A DNA stretch of 64,000 bases, taken from contig NZ_PVZS01000006.1 of the NCBI RefSeq assembly GCF_003004785.1, positions 1 to 64,000 on the forward strand, read 5' to 3'. Each line of letters starts with the position of its first letter. Within the stretch, counting starts at the first letter, position 1. Positions 1,371 through 9,748 of this stretch are shown here, one piece after another. The notes beneath the pieces are model-generated. The model saw only the letters and a list, made by a program, of their open reading frames with translations. It did not search any database and was not told the DNA's origin. The position numbers were made by a program, and so were the translations under genes. Source of the stretch: Alsobacter soli (GTDB taxonomy: Bacteria > Pseudomonadota > Alphaproteobacteria > Rhizobiales > Beijerinckiaceae).

Positions 1371-1506
1371 CCGCGAGGCTGTGTCCGTGGCCCAGCTCCA
1401 GACCGTGCTTGAGGTGGCCCCCCGCTCCGCGGGCTCGCCCAAGCGTGGCCTTGCTCCACGTGGTGAAGCGCGTAACCTCGGCCATCTGTACGGGAGGGAG
1501 GGGCGA

Positions 1507-2373
1507 TTGTTCGACAAGGTCGACCGCCGCCAGGTCCTGGCGTGGACCGCCGCGGCTGTGCTCGGCGGCTCAAGCCAGGCGCGCTCGGCCTCGTCTGAAC
1601 TTCGGTTCGGGCTCACGCCCGTGTTCCTCACCTCCGACCTGGAACTGCTCGCGCGCCTGAAGGCCTATCTGGAGAAATCGACCGGCTTCCCGGTGCGCCT
1701 GATCACCCGGCGCACGTACCAGGAGATAACGGCGCTGCTGCTGTCGGGCCAGATCGACGCGGCCTGGATCTGCGGGTTTCCCTATGTGGTCTACAGGCCG
1801 CAGCTCGCCCTCGTCGCGGTGCCGGTATGGCAAGGGAAGCCGCTCTACCGGTCGTACCTGATCACCGGTCGAGACCGCCCGGCGAACTCCATCGACGACC
1901 TCAGGGGCGACGTCCACGCCTTTTCCGATCCGGACAGCAACTCGGGCTGGCTGGTGACGGCGACGGCGCTGGCGCGGCGCAACCAGGCGCCCGACACCTT
2001 CTTCTCCCAGTCAATCTACACCTGGGGCCATCGCAACGTGATCCGCGCGGTGGCGTCGGGCTTGGCTCAAAGCGGCAGCGTGGACGGCTACGTCTACGAG
2101 GTCATGCGGGAGACCGACGCCGACCTCGTCGGACAGACCCGTGTGGTCGCGCGATCCGACCTGCTTGGCTTTCCACCCGTGGCCTGCGCGGCCTCCTCGG
2201 CCAGGGAGCCGCGCACGGCTGCCCTTCAGTCCGCCCTCGTCGGCATGCGGGACACCGATCAGGGTCGCGCTGTGCTGTCCATGTTGCGCCTGGATGCGTT
2301 CAGCATCGAGCCCCCTTCCCTTTTCGACGGCATCGCACAGGAAGTCGCTGTGGTGCGGGGAGCTGCGGGATGA
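1507..2373 (+). CDS. aioX: AioX-type periplasmic arsenite-binding protein (PhnD-like fold)
   Basis: 288 residues from a TTG start preceded by a GGAGGGAGG ribosome-binding site. A twin-arginine-like signal (DRRQVLAWTAAAVLGG) leads to a phosphonate/phosphate-type substrate-binding fold with the motifs DAAWICGFPYVVY and FSDPDSNSGW. In AioX proteins a conserved cysteine in the WICGFPY stretch takes part in arsenite binding. The stop overlaps the start of the kinase gene (ATGA), the usual aioX-aioS-aioR order. The protein is inferred to present arsenite to AioS in the periplasm and so switch on the oxidase genes. A longer in-frame GTG start at 1381 is possible but would bury the signal peptide. 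Confidence 0.87.
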   Translation: MFDKVDRRQVLAWTAAAVLGGSSQARSASSELRFGLTPVFLTSDLELLARLKAYLEKSTGFPVRLITRRTYQEITALLLSGQIDAAWICGFPYVVYRPQLALVAVPVWQGKPLYRSYLITGRDRPANSIDDLRGDVHAFSDPDSNSGWLVTATALARRNQAPDTFFSQSIYTWGHRNVIRAVASGLAQSGSVDGYVYEVMRETDADLVGQTRVVARSDLLGFPPVACAASSAREPRTAALQSALVGMRDTDQGRAVLSMLRLDAFSIEPPSLFDGIAQEVAVVRGAAG

Positions 2374-3803
2374 CCGAGCGCTCCATCCCGCTCGCGATCA
2401 AGCTTCCGGTCGTGGTGACCGTGTTCATGGCCGTTGTGGCCGCGTTCGTGTCGGAGCGGGTGTTGGTGCGCCTTGAGGAGACCCAGGCGCGGCACCTCGG
2501 CGACCTGGCGACGGTGTATCTCGACGGTCTGTCGTCGGCGCTGGCGAGCCCGGTCGTGCGGGAGGATGTCTGGGAGACGTTCGATATCTTGGACCGCGCC
2601 CGTCAGACCAATGCCGGACTGAAGCCTGTGCTCACGGTGGTGGCCAACACCGCGGGGCGCGTCATCGCCTCGTCGGACCCGAAAGCCGTACCGTCCTGGT
2701 CCGAACTGCCTTCCCGCTTCCTTCACCAGGGCGCCGCCACCCCCGCCATCGAGCCGCGTGACCAGGAATCCGAAGCCGTGGCGCGGGTCGACCTCTCGAC
2801 CGGCGGGCAGGTCGTGGGCTCGATCCACGCTGTGTTCGACACCGCCCCGCTCCTGGCGGAGCGGCGCTCGGTGTTGATCACCCTGATCGGGACCAATCTC
2901 GCGCTTACCAGCGTCCTGGCGGGCGTCGCCTTCCTGGTGGTGCGGCGCATGATGCGCCCGGTCGGTGTGTTGGCCGGCCATCTGCAGGCGGGTGCCGACC
3001 GCGGGGTCGAGCCGATCCCAGCTTCCGTGATCGAGCGTGCTCTCAAGGAGTTCAAGCGTCTCTACGCCTCGTACAACGACATGGCCGTGGCGGTCCGCGA
3101 GCGCGAGGAGTGGTCGCAGCGGATGGCGGAAGACGAGCGGCTGGCGAGCCTCGGCCGGCTCGCCTCCGGCATGGCGCACGAGATCAATAACCCCCTTGGC
3201 GGGCTGTTCAACGCACTGGACACCCTGCGCCAGCACGGCGAGCGCTCCGACGTCAGGGCCAAGACACTGGATCTCATAGAGCGGGGGCTGCGCGGCATCC
3301 GTGACGTGGTTCGGGCCGCGCTCGTCACGTACAGGGCGGACGAGGCGCCCCGGCTGCTCCACCGGGAGGATGTCGACGACCTGAGGCTGCTCGTCGCGCC
3401 GGAGATTAGGCGCAAGGACATCGCCTTGGCTTGGACCAATGGGGCCTATGCTCCCTTGCCGCTCGGAGCGTCGCCTGTCCGTCAGGTTCTGCTGAACCTG
3501 CTACTGAACGCCTGCGAGGCGACACGCTTCGGTGGCGAGATCCGGTTCTCGGCCGATGTCGACGAAGGCCAGTTCGTCGCCGTGGTCGACGACGACGGCC
3601 CTGGCCCACCGGACCGCCTGCGGAGCATCCTTGAGAGCCAGGCGAACTTCGTTCCAAGGGAACGAGGGCTGGGGCTGTTGATCGTGCAGCGGCTGCTGAC
3701 GGACTTGGGAGGCTCGGCGACCGTCCACCCCAGTCCCAGCGGCGGAACCCTGATCCGCGTCGTCGTCCCGTTGCCTTCGGAGGTTCTCGCCGATGTCGCT
3801 TGA
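2370..3803 (+). CDS. aioS: AioS sensor histidine kinase
   Basis: 477 residues. The N-terminal membrane helix (about 10-30) and a second helix near 170-190 bracket a periplasmic sensor domain, followed by a HAMP-like linker. The transmitter has the H box GMAHEINNPLGG with phospho-acceptor His270, the N box LLNLLLNACEA, the D box VVDDDGPG and the GLGLLIVQRL G2 box, so it is an intact HisKA/HATPase_c kinase. It starts inside the aioX stop and overlaps aioR by 11 bp, implying coupled translation. Its role is inferred from this context: sense AioX-arsenite and phosphorylate AioR. Confidence 0.88.
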   Translation: MTERSIPLAIKLPVVVTVFMAVVAAFVSERVLVRLEETQARHLGDLATVYLDGLSSALASPVVREDVWETFDILDRARQTNAGLKPVLTVVANTAGRVIASSDPKAVPSWSELPSRFLHQGAATPAIEPRDQESEAVARVDLSTGGQVVGSIHAVFDTAPLLAERRSVLITLIGTNLALTSVLAGVAFLVVRRMMRPVGVLAGHLQAGADRGVEPIPASVIERALKEFKRLYASYNDMAVAVREREEWSQRMAEDERLASLGRLASGMAHEINNPLGGLFNALDTLRQHGERSDVRAKTLDLIERGLRGIRDVVRAALVTYRADEAPRLLHREDVDDLRLLVAPEIRRKDIALAWTNGAYAPLPLGASPVRQVLLNLLLNACEATRFGGEIRFSADVDEGQFVAVVDDDGPGPPDRLRSILESQANFVPRERGLGLLIVQRLLTDLGGSATVHPSPSGGTLIRVVVPLPSEVLADVA

Positions 3804-5097
3804 AGGCCGGACAATCGCGCTCGTCGAAGACGATCCGATCATGGGCGAGTCGCTTGTGGACCGCCTCACCCTGGACGGGGCCAAAGTGCACTGGTTCTCG
3901 ACGTGCCGGGCGGCGGCGGCCGGGATCGCCGAGCAGGCTCCCGACATCGTGCTCTGCGACATACGTCTTCCGGACGGGACCGGCGAGGACATCTATGCGG
4001 CCTCGAGCGCCGTGCCCGACGCCCCGCCCTTCATCTTCATGACCGGCTTTGGCGACATCGACCAGGCGGTTCGCCTGATGAAGAACGGCGCAGGCGACTA
4101 CGTGACGAAGCCGTTCGAGACCTCGGCCTTCCTGGCGCGCGTGGAGCAGCTTATCCGCGCGAGGACGCCACCTGATGAGCCGGTTCTCGGGGTTTCCGCT
4201 CGGATGGCGGAAACCGAGCGCCTGCTCAGGAGGTTCGCCAGGCTGTCCGCGCCCGTCCTGCTCCAGGGTGAGACCGGCGCGGGCAAAGAGGTGTGCGCCC
4301 GCTTCCTCCACGATCTCTCACGGGGCGGCCACCCCTTCATGGCCGTGAACTGCGCGGCTATCCCGAAGGATCTGCTGGAGAGCGAGCTGTTCGGACATGA
4401 ACGTGGGGCGTTCACGGGCGCGCAGGCGCGCCACCGCGGTTACGCCGAGCGCGCCGGCAAGGGCACGTTGTTCCTGGACGAGATCAGCGAACTAGAGCCC
4501 AAGCTTCAGGCCAAGCTACTCCGGCTGATCGAGGATCGCGTGTTCCACCGTGTCGGCGGCGAGGAGCCCGTCAGGATCCAGGCCCGCCTGGTGTGCGCAA
4601 CGAACGCCGACCTCTCCGCCCGCGTCCGGACTGGCGCCTTCCGCGAGGACCTCCTGTACCGGATCAACGTCCTCGCCCTGCAGGTCCCTCCCCTGCGCGA
4701 CCGGCCCGACGACATCGAGTGGCTCGCGGAGCGCTTTTTCCAGGAGTTCTCGCGGGAGGCTGATACAGAGCTGCTGGGGCTCAGCGCCAACGCCGTTACC
4801 GCCCTTTGCGGACATGGGTGGCCGGGCAACGTGCGCGAGCTCCGCAACCGCATGGAGCGGGCGGCCGGCATGGCCCTCGGCCCCTGGGTCCTGCCCGGCG
4901 ACCTGTTCCCCGAAAACGCCCATGTTCCGGAGCGGCCCGCGGCGACCTTGGAGGAGGGCCGCAACGCGGCGGAGAAGCGGCTCATCCAGCAGGCCATCCA
5001 GGAAGCAGGGGGCGTGCTGGGCGCCGCCGCCAGCCGGCTCGGCGTCTCGCGCACGACTTTGTGGGAGAAGATGCGCAAGTACGGGATCGATGGCTGA
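3793..5097 (+). CDS. aioR: AioR sigma54-dependent response regulator
   Basis: 434 residues with three domains in order. The receiver (1-120) has the acidic pocket VEDD and phospho-acceptor Asp56 in LCDIRLPDG. The AAA+ activator domain (about 135-370) has Walker A GETGAGKE, the sigma54-contact loop GAFTGA and Walker B LFLDEIS. The C-terminal Fis-type helix-turn-helix (about 390-434) contains LGAAASRLGVSRTTLWEKM. It should drive a -24/-12 promoter by ATP hydrolysis. Matching upstream dyads and a -24/-12 element lie immediately downstream, before aioB, so its target is probably the oxidase operon. Confidence 0.9.
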   Translation: MSLEGRTIALVEDDPIMGESLVDRLTLDGAKVHWFSTCRAAAAGIAEQAPDIVLCDIRLPDGTGEDIYAASSAVPDAPPFIFMTGFGDIDQAVRLMKNGAGDYVTKPFETSAFLARVEQLIRARTPPDEPVLGVSARMAETERLLRRFARLSAPVLLQGETGAGKEVCARFLHDLSRGGHPFMAVNCAAIPKDLLESELFGHERGAFTGAQARHRGYAERAGKGTLFLDEISELEPKLQAKLLRLIEDRVFHRVGGEEPVRIQARLVCATNADLSARVRTGAFREDLLYRINVLALQVPPLRDRPDDIEWLAERFFQEFSREADTELLGLSANAVTALCGHGWPGNVRELRNRMERAAGMALGPWVLPGDLFPENAHVPERPAATLEEGRNAAEKRLIQQAIQEAGGVLGAAASRLGVSRTTLWEKMRKYGIDG

Positions 5098-5104
5098 GGA
5101 GGAT

Positions 5105-5153
5105 GTTCGGAATGCCTGACACGCTCGCCAGAGCGACGTTCGGAAATCCTAAC
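5105..5153. promoter_or_regulatory. Pair of candidate AioR upstream activating sites
   Basis: Two related 16-bp dyads lie head to tail. The right one (5138-5153), GTTCGGAAATCCTAAC, is an inverted repeat of GTTnGGA. The left one (5105-5120), GTTCGGAATGCCTGAC, is an imperfect copy. Their starts are 33 bp apart, about three helical turns, so both face the same side of the DNA. They lie roughly 95-130 bp upstream of the transcription start predicted from the sigma54 promoter, the usual place for enhancer-binding-protein sites. A small CGCTC-GCCA-GAGCG dyad sits between them. Assignment to AioR is inferred from location. Confidence 0.7.
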
Positions 5154-5214
5154 GCCCCCACAACCGCGTCCAATTTACCTTCGCGATGTCAGCTGTTTAG
5201 ACCAACGCGCCTCC

Positions 5215-5230
5215 TGGCATGTCCCCTGCG
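5215..5230 (+). promoter_or_regulatory. Sigma54 (-24/-12) promoter of aioBA
   Basis: TGGCATG-N4-CTGCG matches the RpoN consensus TGGCAYG-N4-TTGCW except for one base in the -12 box. The invariant GG (5216-5217) and GC (5228-5229) are exactly 10 bp apart. The predicted transcript start is near 5240, about 35 bp before the aioB ATG. The element follows a gene for a sigma54 activator and two matching dyads, which makes it strongly plausible. Confidence 0.8.
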
Positions 5231-5274: not shown

Positions 5275-5799
5275 ATGAAGAGATGCGATCTGCTCGTCGA
5301 CGTCGGCCGTCGACGCTTCCTGTCCGGCGCCGGCCTGGCGGCCGCTGGCGCGGCCGCAACCACCATGGTTCCGCAGGCGCCGGCTCGCGCAGCCACAGCC
5401 CCCGCCCGCGTCACCTATCCCTCCGCGCGCTTGGTCAACATCAAGGACCTGAAGGAGAACGAGCCCATCGCGGTGACTTATCCCGACGCTGACGCGCCGG
5501 GGGTGATCATCAAGCTCGGCAAGGCCGTCCCCGGCGGCGTAGGCCCGGACCGGGACGTGGTCGGCTTCACCACCATGTGCCCGCACAAGGGCTTCCCCCT
5601 CCACTACAACCATGAGCGGCGCACGCTGAACTGCTCCGGCCACTACTCGGTGTTCGACTGCGAGGCCGGCGGCCAGGAGACGTGGGGTCACGCGACCCAG
5701 AACCTGCCGCAGTATTCGCTGCGGGTGGACGCCAACGGCGACGTGTTCGCGGAGGGGCTGGACGAGCTCCTCTACGGCCGCCTTTCGAACGTGCTGTGA
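5275..5799 (+). CDS. aioB: Arsenite oxidase small subunit, Rieske 2Fe-2S protein
   Basis: 174 residues. A twin-arginine signal (GRRRFLSGAGLAAAGAAA) exports the folded subunit with AioA. The Rieske ligands are the MCPHKGFP box (Cys, His) and the NCSGHYSVFD box (Cys, His). The extra cysteines that make a disulfide bridge in many Rieske proteins are replaced by Phe and Gly, as reported for rhizobial AioB. The subunit passes electrons from the molybdenum subunit to a soluble carrier. It is preceded by a GGGGGAG ribosome-binding site and followed 10 bp later by aioA, giving the usual BA order. Confidence 0.93.
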   Translation: MKRCDLLVDVGRRRFLSGAGLAAAGAAATTMVPQAPARAATAPARVTYPSARLVNIKDLKENEPIAVTYPDADAPGVIIKLGKAVPGGVGPDRDVVGFTTMCPHKGFPLHYNHERRTLNCSGHYSVFDCEAGGQETWGHATQNLPQYSLRVDANGDVFAEGLDELLYGRLSNVL

Positions 5800-5809
5800 G
5801 GAGGTCGTC

Positions 5810-8428
5810 ATGGCTTACAAGCGTCAAACCGACCGGCTCCCGATCATCCCGGCCAACGCCAAGGAGCACAACGTCACCTGCCACTACTGCATCGTGGGCT
5901 GCGGCTACAAAGCCTACACCTGGGACATGGACCAGCAGGGCACGACCGAGCCCGGCGGCAACAAGTTCAACACTGACCTGTCCAAGCAGCAGGGGGCCGA
6001 GACGGAGGCCTGGTACTCGCCGTCGATGTACAACGTCGTCCGGCAGAACGGCAAAGACGTCCACCTCGTCATCAAGCCCGACCCGGGCTGCGTCGTGAAC
6101 TCGGGCCTGGGATCGATCCGGGGCGCCCGGATGGCCGAAATGACCTACTCGCCCGTGCGCAACACGGAGCTGCAGCGCCTCACCGACCCGATGGTCTGGC
6201 GCTACGGTCAGATGCAGCCGACGTCCTGGGAGGACGCCCTCGACCTCGTGGCGCGGGTCACGGCCGCGGTGATCAATGAGCAGGGCGAGGACGGTCTCTT
6301 CGTCTCGGCCTTCGACCACGGCGGCGCCGGCGGCGGCTACGAGAACACCTGGGGCACCGGGAAGCTCTACTTCACCGCCATGAAGGTGAAGAACATCCGC
6401 ATCCACAACCGACCCGCCTACAACTCCGAGGTGCACGCCACCCGCGACATGGGCGTCGGCGAACTCAACAACTGCTACGAGGACGCCGAGCTGGCCGACA
6501 CCATCGTGGCGGTCGGCGCCAACAGCCTTGAGACGCAGACGAACTACTTCCTGAACCACTGGGTGCCCAACCTGCGCGGCATCTCCATGGACAAGAAAAA
6601 GGAGCAGCTTCCGAACGAAGCGCACGCCCCGGCCAGGGTCATCATCGTTGACCCCCGCCGCACCGTGACCGTGAACGCATGCGAGATCGAGGTGGGCAAG
6701 GACCGGGTGATGCACCTCGCGATCAACTCGGGCACCGACCTCGCTCTGTTCAACGCATGGCTGACCTACATCGCGGACAAGGGCTGGACGGACAAGGCGT
6801 TCATTCAGACCTCCACCGGCAACTTCGACCAGGCGCTGACGGGCAACCGGACGACGCTGGAGGAGGCCGCCAGGATTACGGGTCTGAGCGTCGACGAGAT
6901 CCGTCAGTCGGCTGAGTGGATCGCCCAGCCCAAGGAGGGCGGCGCGCGTCGTCGCACCATGTTCGCCTACGAGAAGGGGCTGATCTGGGGCAACGACAAT
7001 TACCGCACCAACGGCGCCCTGGTGAACGTGGCGCTGGCCACCGGCAACATCGGCCGGCCCGGCGGCGGCTGCGTCCGGCTCGGCGGCCACCAGGAGGGGT
7101 ACTCCAGGCCGTCCGACGCGCATGTCGGGCGCCCGGCCCCCTACGTCGACCAGCTGCTGATCGGCGGCAAGGGCGGCGTGCACCACATCTGGGGCTGCGA
7201 CCATTACAAGACCACTCTCAACGCCCTGAAGTTCAAGCAGGCGTACAAGCGCCGGACGGACATGGTGAAGGACGCCATGTCGGCCGTGCCCTGGGGCGAC
7301 CGGCCGGCGATGGTGGCCGCCATCATGGACGCCATCCGCAAGGGCGGTCTGTTCTCGGTCGACGTCGACATCATCCCGACCCAGATCGGCCAGGCCGCCC
7401 ACGTGTGGCTGCCCGCCGCGACCTCGGGCGAGATGAACCTCACCTCCATGAACGGCGAGCGCCGCATGAGGCTCACGGAGCGCTACATGGATCCGCCCGG
7501 GCGGGCCATGCCGGACTGCCTCATCGCGGCCCGGATCGCGAACAACCTGGAGCGGGTCTTCCGCGAGCAGGGCAAGAACGAGGTGGCCGACCGCTTCAAG
7601 GGCTTCGACTGGAAGACCGAGGAAGACGCCTTCATGGACGGCTACCACCAGCATGAGAAAGGCGGCGAGTTCGTCACCTACGCCCGGCTCCGGGCGATGG
7701 GGACGAACGGCTTCCAGGAGCCGGCCATCGGCCTGGAGGGCGGACCGCCGGCGGCAGGCGGCACGACCACCGGGCAGACGGCCGGCGTCGTCCTCCAGGG
7801 TCCCGCCATCCAGGGCGCCAGGGGCAAGGAGCCGGTCCTGCTCGCGTCCCCCCAGCCGGGAGGTTCGGCCGCAGGCGTGGTGGCCGGCTCCGAGCGGATC
7901 GTCGGCACCAAGCGCCTTTACGCCGACGGCAAGTTCAACACCAAGGACGGCAAGGCCGTCTTCATGGAGACCAAGTGGCGCGGGCTCCAGGCCGCCGGAA
8001 AGGAGGAGGAGTCGAAAAAGTTCGCCTTCCTCATCAACAACGGGCGGACGAACCACGTCTGGCAGAGCGCGTACCTGGATCAGCAGAACGACTTCGTGGT
8101 CGACCGCAACCCCTGGCCGTTCATCGAGATGCACCCTGACGACATGGCTGAGCTCGGCCTCAAGCCGGGAGACCTCGTCGAGGTCTACAACGACAACGGC
8201 TCGACCCAGGCCATGGCGTACCCGACAGACCGGGCCCGGCGGAAGCAGACCTTCATGCTGTTCGGTTTCCCGTCTGGCGTGCAGGGCAACGTGGTGTCCG
8301 CGGGAGTGAACGAGTTCATCATCCCCAACTACAAGCAAACCTGGGGCAACATCCGGAAACTCGCGGACGCGCCCGAGGCGCTGCGAGGCTACTCCTTCAA
8401 GTCCAAGGAATACACGCCGCCCGCTTGA
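5810..8428 (+). CDS. aioA: Arsenite oxidase large subunit, molybdopterin and 3Fe-4S protein
   Basis: 872 residues. It oxidises arsenite to arsenate at a bis-MGD molybdenum centre in the periplasm, carried across by the AioB Tat signal since it has none itself. The N-terminal CHYCIVGCGYKAYTW (Cys24, 27, 31) is the three-cysteine 3Fe-4S motif characteristic of AioA. Further family blocks are FDHGGAGGGYENTWGTG, RNTELQRLTDPMV and the C-terminal FLINNGRTNHVWQ. It is longer than most AioA proteins I know (about 825-845), because residues 645-696 form a Gly/Ala/Pro-rich stretch that interrupts an otherwise conserved region. The start has a GAGGAGG site. Confidence 0.95.
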   Translation: MAYKRQTDRLPIIPANAKEHNVTCHYCIVGCGYKAYTWDMDQQGTTEPGGNKFNTDLSKQQGAETEAWYSPSMYNVVRQNGKDVHLVIKPDPGCVVNSGLGSIRGARMAEMTYSPVRNTELQRLTDPMVWRYGQMQPTSWEDALDLVARVTAAVINEQGEDGLFVSAFDHGGAGGGYENTWGTGKLYFTAMKVKNIRIHNRPAYNSEVHATRDMGVGELNNCYEDAELADTIVAVGANSLETQTNYFLNHWVPNLRGISMDKKKEQLPNEAHAPARVIIVDPRRTVTVNACEIEVGKDRVMHLAINSGTDLALFNAWLTYIADKGWTDKAFIQTSTGNFDQALTGNRTTLEEAARITGLSVDEIRQSAEWIAQPKEGGARRRTMFAYEKGLIWGNDNYRTNGALVNVALATGNIGRPGGGCVRLGGHQEGYSRPSDAHVGRPAPYVDQLLIGGKGGVHHIWGCDHYKTTLNALKFKQAYKRRTDMVKDAMSAVPWGDRPAMVAAIMDAIRKGGLFSVDVDIIPTQIGQAAHVWLPAATSGEMNLTSMNGERRMRLTERYMDPPGRAMPDCLIAARIANNLERVFREQGKNEVADRFKGFDWKTEEDAFMDGYHQHEKGGEFVTYARLRAMGTNGFQEPAIGLEGGPPAAGGTTTGQTAGVVLQGPAIQGARGKEPVLLASPQPGGSAAGVVAGSERIVGTKRLYADGKFNTKDGKAVFMETKWRGLQAAGKEEESKKFAFLINNGRTNHVWQSAYLDQQNDFVVDRNPWPFIEMHPDDMAELGLKPGDLVEVYNDNGSTQAMAYPTDRARRKQTFMLFGFPSGVQGNVVSAGVNEFIIPNYKQTWGNIRKLADAPEALRGYSFKSKEYTPPA

Positions 8429-8488: not shown

Positions 8489-9748
8489 ATGAACTTCCAA
8501 GCGATGCCGCCCGAGGTGCTGGCGCAAGAGCGCGGGCTGATCGGGATCGACGAGGCGCGCGAGCGCGCTGCCTCTTACGCCGGCTCCGGGTTGGCGACCG
8601 AGGTCGCGCCGCTCGTCTGCGCCGCGGGACGTGTGCTCGCCGCCGACCTGAGGGCGAGGCATGCGCAACCGCCGTTCGACAACTCCGCCATGGACGGCTA
8701 CGCGGCCTTCACCAACGGGGAGCCGCTTGAGGCCGGCTCAAGGCTGCAGGTGACGTCCAGGACACCGGCCGGATCCGTGGCGACACCTATTTCTCCCGGC
8801 ACCTGCGCGAGGATCTTCACCGGGGCCTCGTTGCCCGCGGGCGCCGACGCGGTCGTGATGCAGGAGCACGTCCTTCGCGACGGGGATCACATCGTGCTTC
8901 GGCGGGCGCTCATGCCGGGCGACAACATCCGTCGGCAAGGCGAAGACATTCAGCCTGGAGAGCTTCTCCTGAGCGCGGGACAGAGGCTGGACGCACGTCA
9001 CGTCGCCCTGATCGCGAGCCAGGGCCACGCGCTCGTCAGGATCCAGCAGCGCATCCGGGTCGGCGTGATCTCGACCGGCCGAGAGCTCGTCCAGCCGGGA
9101 CGCGAGCTGGAGGCCGCGCAGATCTACGACAGCAACAGGCCGATGCTTGCGACGCTGGCCGCCCATGCCGGGGCGGAGGTGGTTGACGGGGGATGGGTGG
9201 ACGACGAGGCCGACGCGCTCGCCGCGCGGATGCAGGACCTCGCGGCGACATGCCAGCTCGTCGTGACGACCGGCGGGGCCTCCGTTAGCGAGGAGGACCA
9301 CTCCTTTGCGGCCCTCAAACGAGCCGGTGGTCATGGCGAAGTCCTGCGCATCGCCTTGAAGCCGGGCAAGCCAGCCGTGGTGGGCCGGATGGGCGAAGCC
9401 GCCTACCTCGGGCTGCCGGGCAACCCGGTCGCCGCGCTGGTGTCGTGGCTCATGCTGGGCAGCGCGGTCCTCGGCCGCCTGCGCGGGTTCGACTTCGAGC
9501 GGCCACGGGGCGAACCGCTGACCTGCGCCGTCGCCCACCAGCGCAGGCCGGGCCGGACCGAGTTCGCGCCTGCTCGCGTCGTGACCCGTCCTGACGGCGG
9601 GAAGGGCCTGGAGATCCTCGGCCGCGGCGGATCCGCCCGCCTGATGCCTCTCGTCCTGGCGGACGGCCTGGCCGAGATCCCGGCCGCCGTCGCGCATGTG
9701 CCGGCCGGGATGGAGCTGGCCTTTCACCGCTTCGGAGGATGTGCCTAG
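8489..9748 (+). CDS. moeA: Molybdopterin molybdenumtransferase (MoeA family)
   Basis: 419 residues, the usual MoeA length. It inserts molybdate into adenylylated molybdopterin to give the cofactor that AioA needs. Visible family motifs are the MDGYA block near the N-terminus, [11 protein letters not shown], the [12 protein letters not shown] nucleotide-binding block and [11 protein letters not shown] moeA gene next to aioBA is common and probably supplies extra cofactor capacity during oxidase induction. It is on the same strand, 60 bp after aioA, with a hairpin between. Its stop overlaps by 4 bp the end of the convergent arsH. Confidence 0.92.

Follow-up and report, generated by a model that had tools for sequence, protein, structure and literature searches.

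The aio Locus of Alsobacter soli

The window, by which we mean the entire 64,000-nucleotide stretch of Alsobacter soli DNA analyzed here, carries the gene cluster aioX-aioS-aioR-aioB-aioA-moeA on its + strand, with arsH downstream on the opposite strand. The first gene, aioX (1381..2373, + strand), is predicted to encode a periplasmic arsenite-binding protein of the PhnD-like fold family, given its matches to PhnD/phosphonate-type substrate-binding families (E 1e-26 to 1e-28), and lies directly 5' of a histidine kinase gene, as at the annotated NT-26 and A. tumefaciens loci. The latter gene, aioS (2370..3803, + strand; the end is mapped and the start approximate), is identified as encoding a sensor histidine kinase by AtoS/ZraS-type matches and by synteny with NT-26. 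Downstream are aioR (3793..5097, + strand, the stop codon ending at 5097), aioB (5275..5799, + strand, ATG at 5275) for the Rieske subunit of arsenite oxidase (TIGR02694, 190 bits, above cut-off) and aioA (5810..8428, + strand) for the molybdopterin subunit (TIGR02693, 1267 bits, above the curated cut-off). With aioX, aioS and aioR 5' of aioB and aioA, and all five co-oriented, the locus has the composition of an aioXSR-aioBA arsenic island. The moeA-like molybdopterin molybdotransferase gene (8489..9748, + strand; MoeA family, E 1e-93, below the equivalog cut-off) probably belongs to the same operon as aioBA; moeA1 is also found in the aio operon of NT-26 (PMC6011840).

The aioR product is an NtrC-family response regulator of 434 aa in which Pfam recognizes the domains Response_reg, Sigma54_activat, AAA_lid_14 and HTH_8. 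Walker A is found at residue 159, GAFTGA at residues 205-210, Walker B at 226 and a Fis-type helix-turn-helix at 393-430. The protein combines the receiver, the AAA+ module with Walker motifs and GAFTGA, and the Fis-type helix-turn-helix of an NtrC-family enhancer-binding protein. Furthermore, rpoN is encoded in the same genome.

Tandem Dyads and a -24/-12 Element Upstream of aioB

The aioR-aioB intergenic region contains two predicted AioR sites, a distal dyad GTTCGGAATGCCTGAC (5105..5120, + strand) and a proximal dyad GTTCGGAAATCCTAAC (5138..5153, + strand), separated by a 17-bp spacer (5121..5137, no strand assigned). Their starts, at -170 and -137 relative to the aioB ATG, are 33 bp apart, which corresponds to 3.14 turns at 10.5 bp per turn. 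The proximal dyad agrees with GTTnGGA-N2-TCCnAAC at 12/12 positions and its arms are complementary at six of seven; the corresponding values for the distal dyad are 10/12 and four of seven, its right half being degenerate (GCCTGAC, with the end GAC rather than AAC). Measured against the 14 fixed positions of GTTCGGA-N2-TCCGAAC, the proximal dyad matches at 13 and the distal at 11, and the pair scores 24 where the threshold for a tandem pair is 21/28. Both sequence hallmarks of an AioR upstream activating sequence are found in the window, namely a GTT-N10-AAC palindrome closely resembling the footprinted GTTCGGATTTCCGAAC and tandem copies 100-200 nt 5' of aioB.

The dyad pattern as such is not enriched in the window (nine matches at up to three mismatches vs. 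17.8 expected). The sole zero-mismatch match is nevertheless the one at 5138, and 5105 sits 33 bp from it. When matrices trained on the aioB upstream regions of other species were applied to both strands of the window, 5138 ranked first with 24.0 bits and 5105 second with 18.3, the next best site reaching 13.4. Genome-wide, further AioR sites are not in excess (18 at two mismatches or fewer per strand vs. 15 in a reversed control), and no site was found upstream of aioX in the same search. Three of the next-best genomic sites were inspected: L134 and L135 lie inside coding sequence and L132, the best, appears to do so as well. The genome sequence thus gives no evidence of AioR targets other than aioBA.

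Downstream of the dyads lies a predicted sigma54 element, TGGCATGTCCCCTGCG (5215..5230, + strand), which reads TGGCATG-N4-CTGCG. Its GG (5216-5217) and GC (5228-5229) have the exact spacing of 10 bp, and it agrees with TGGCACG-N4-TTGCW at 9/12 fixed positions, being off consensus at the other three. A consensus search allowing three mismatches returned 75 matches in the window vs. 102 expected and is not above chance alone; a consensus match by itself was not taken as evidence, and a trained matrix was required. With the aio promoter matrix, 5215 ranks first over both strands of the window with 15.0 bits, followed by a site of 12.1. Taking the C at 5229 as the -12 position, transcription is predicted to start at about 5241, some 34 bp 5' of the aioB start codon, and the dyad centers would then fall near -128 (distal) and -95 (proximal). 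The distance from the proximal dyad to the promoter is 77 bp.

A preliminary description of this DNA had reported two 16-bp dyads 33 bp apart between aioR and aioB, about 95-130 bp upstream of the predicted start, together with an RpoN element of GG-N10-GC spacing. Its coordinates and sequences are right, and the matrix ranking bears out the promoter. It had also called the control region complete, which holds for the presence of dyads and promoter but overlooks the degeneracy of the distal dyad and of the -24/-12 element and the absence of a spacer sequence conserved elsewhere (see below).

Conservation across aioB Loci

From 80 aioB loci of named genomes plus further loci we assembled 102 distinct upstream regions. 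Conservation of the dyads in related aio clusters had been set beforehand as the test of the preliminary description, and it was found: the tandem pair (at least 21/28) is present in 82 of the 102 real regions, compared with 3 of 2040 shuffled ones. Of the 82 paired regions, 52 have a spacing of 33 bp and 28 one of 29-32 bp, and none has 34; the outliers of 19 and 44 (one each) are probably wrong pairings. Of the 79 loci whose fetched DNA includes AioR, 72 have the pair, vs. 10 of the 23 others (Fisher p 4e-6, relatedness ignored), and some of these ten may have aioR beyond the fetched stretch. The proximal dyad lies 78-81 bp from the TGG in 53 of 67 loci, and the better-scoring dyad is usually the proximal one (45 loci vs. 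27 distal).

The same layout is seen at the named reference loci of NT-26 and A. tumefaciens. Judged by AioR, the window is closest to Methylobacterium and Microvirga; in the aligned intergenic regions it is mainly dyads and promoter that are shared, with the -24/-12 element of the window aligning with TGGCACG-type elements. The compared loci show no conserved block in the stretch from the proximal dyad to the promoter, and a conserved IHF-type site there is not indicated by the alignments. The predicted layout is conserved across Alphaproteobacteria and tied to the presence of AioR.

The gene order around these sites varies. In 11 loci (L024, L041, L051, L073, L087, L089, L090, L095, L096, L099 and L100) the dyad pair still precedes aioB even though aioR is either over 800 bp away or oppositely oriented. 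At L148 (1603-2321), from a plasmid of Bosea sp. F3-2, a MerR-family regulator and a small ORF separate aioR from aioB, and the dyads and promoter still adjoin aioB. A more distant second TIGR02694 group (L012-L022), with about 35-38% identity to AioB of the window, has no aioR, dyads or promoter nearby.

A Conserved Spacer between the Dyads

In the 52 loci with 33-bp spacing, nearly all of them alphaproteobacterial, the 17 bp between the dyads have a mean pairwise identity of 0.55, vs. 0.27-0.30 in outside stretches of equal length. A core, CGGC-N3-GCANCAT, is matched at eight or more of its ten positions in 41 of the 52 loci. The carriers (L030, L034, L061, L072, L077 and 36 others) show nearly dyad-level conservation in this block. 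The core is absent in the window, where four of the ten positions match, and in the Methylobacterium relative L025. The block shows weak palindromic symmetry centered midway between the dyads, with 2.96 pairs vs. 2.14 in shuffles, a comparison in which the loci share ancestry, and it might be a third dyad. The conserved spacer may provide an additional contact for AioR, bind a different protein or help to bend the DNA; it does not appear to be described in the papers on aio promoters that we consulted.

We also considered that the spacer might belong to a short coding sequence: a period of 33 bp is 11 codons long, and one frame of the dyads reads FGFPN. We regard this as unlikely, however. Some loci have spacings of 29, 31 or 32, the dyads vary symmetrically (Y/R in mirrored places) and conservation does not extend beyond the proximal dyad.

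Joint Loss of the GAFTGA Loop and the -24/-12 Promoter

We examined 87 AioR orthologs that are linked to aioB, a few of them from additional loci. The GAFTGA-type loop is intact in 73 and lost in 14 (L009, L028, L030, L032, L047, L076, L092, L112, L113, L122, L129, L138, L140 and L146, the last from a Rhodobacter-type strain). The -24/-12 promoter has been lost in all 14 of the latter and in none of the 73 former. With the promoter matrix applied leave-one-out, the two groups are fully separated: the best promoter-region site never falls below 5.8 bits in the 73 and never exceeds -0.1 bits in the 14. Five of the 73 had seemed promoterless, but inspection of their sequences revealed TGGCAC-type elements in which -12 has GA or GG. 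This joint loss in relatives of GAFTGA and the -24/-12 element ties the promoter element to AioR.

In a quick tree from which the loop columns had been left out, the losses of loop and promoter take four changes each, and these fall at the same places. This gives about four independent co-loss events on the best tree and at least two on supported branches; because only two changes are forced by well-supported branches, a formal correlation test is without power. Two dyads are kept in seven of the 14 loop-lost loci and one in the other seven. The Walker B acidic pair has also been lost in the Rhodobacterales-type loop-lost group, and is kept in the Aestuariivirga-type group. By eye, hexamers resembling TAnnnT (TATCCT, TAGACT, TACACT and similar) lie about 35-50 bp before the aioB start in loop-lost loci, in the place expected of a sigma70 -10.

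A precedent exists in NtrC of R. capsulatus, a member of the same activator family that is without GAFTGA and acts at sigma70 promoters; Caulobacter NtrC is indicated to do likewise (PMC10274813). A switch of sigma factor is the likely reading of loop-lost AioR. We consider it rather probable that the sigma54 module of the window represents the intact state, which the co-loss pattern suggests has been repeatedly dismantled in several alphaproteobacterial lineages, with one or both dyads retained and AioR there having presumably switched to the housekeeping polymerase. With both the predicted AioR loop and the predicted promoter intact, the window is on the unchanged side. The predicted aio layout is not universal among aioXSR clusters, and the loop-lost loci are an exception to the published rule. 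In a literature search of partial coverage we did not find coupled loop and promoter loss described for AioR.

A Model for aioBA Activation and Its Alternatives

We regard it as very probable that the arsenite-oxidase operon aioBA is controlled by 5105-5230, which would comprise both its upstream activating sequence and its promoter. The reading of the dyads as AioR sites and of the element as a sigma54 promoter, already made in the preliminary description, gains support from the domains of AioR, its GAFTGA and Walker motifs, the presence of rpoN and the conserved layout. Under this model, arsenite-bound AioX would activate AioS, which would in turn phosphorylate AioR. AioR dimers would then occupy both dyads, some 95 and 128 bp 5' of the start and on roughly the same helix face, and assemble a hexameric ATPase. 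The latter would contact sigma54-RNA polymerase waiting in a closed complex on 5215-5230, and opening of that complex would allow transcription of aioBA from about 5241. For AioR binding, the start site and arsenite induction in Alsobacter soli, we infer from published work on relatives.

Alternatively, only the proximal dyad might be a real AioR site, the degenerate distal copy being a functionless relic. The arms of the distal dyad pair at just four of seven positions, the proximal dyad is usually the better site across loci (45 vs. 27) and several relatives have a single dyad. Nevertheless, we find this unlikely: the 33-bp register is preserved by the distal copy, and no site in the 64 kb other than the proximal dyad matches better. 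Moreover, the loci with one good dyad, L071 excepted, have also lost GAFTGA, which AioR of the window keeps. That loop also weighs against a scenario in which aioBA has a sigma70 promoter, AioR activates it in the conventional way and the GG-N10-GC is coincidental. Such is the likely situation in relatives with a GAFTGA-less AioR, and the -24/-12 search alone was not above chance. In the window, however, the element is top-ranked and lies 77 bp from the dyad, near the conserved 78-81 bp, which makes this scenario highly improbable. Least credible of all, in our view, is that the dyads serve another regulator such as an ArsR/SmtB protein. AioF of Thiomonas, a protein of this type, reportedly binds upstream of aioB (cited in PMC7533571). 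However, the 16-mer matches the sequence protected by the purified AioR DNA-binding domain (PMC5335332), and the dyad pair tracks the presence of aioR.

Comparison with Known Systems

The tandem palindromes, the recognition sequence and the -24/-12 layout are known already, and the window is one more, somewhat degenerate example. The AioR recognition sequence that had been proposed from DNA alone is correct, but its implied novelty does not stand (PMC3834237, PMC5335332, PMC2848651). The added value of the present study resides in the exceptions brought out by the comparison, namely loop/promoter co-loss and the conserved spacer, more than in the window itself. Related activators with and without the sigma54-contacting loop offer natural pairs for testing a change of sigma factor.

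Li et al. (2013) described two tandem palindrome-like sequences 100-200 nt 5' of aioB, together with a -24/-12 element, in 12 of 12 aioXSR-linked aioBA operons, and proposed the palindromes to be AioR upstream activating sequences (PMC3834237). The window is of the same kind, with a weaker distal palindrome and -24/-12 element than is usual, and our comparison extends the published 12 to about 100 loci. Shi et al. (2017), working with Agrobacterium tumefaciens GW4, obtained an AioR footprint on GTTCGGATTTCCGAAC upstream of mcp (PMC5335332). This sequence differs from the proximal dyad of the window at two central bases and one arm base; the GW4 target gene is mcp with a single footprinted site, whereas the window has two dyads before aioB.

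In Herminiimonas arsenicoxydans, aoxAB is transcribed from a sigma54 -12/-24 promoter whose start was mapped by 5'RACE and which requires RpoN and AoxR (Koechler et al. 2010; PMC2848651). There the start lies 26 bp before the start codon and the element, TGGCACGCAGTTTGC, is stronger, compared with the approximately 34 bp predicted for the window. The aioBA operon of Rhizobium sp. NT-26 also has an RpoN promoter (PMC6011840). Its locus (L143) shows, like the window, two dyads 33 bp apart with a -24/-12 element downstream, there TGGCACAACGATTGCA; the dyad and spacer sequences differ. Finally, at the NorR enhancer of E. coli a bacterial enhancer-binding protein assembles on several upstream sites before a sigma54 promoter, as we propose for AioR in the window; NorR, however, has three sites and a nitric oxide-responsive GAF domain, while the window has only two recognizable sites (PMC2941729).
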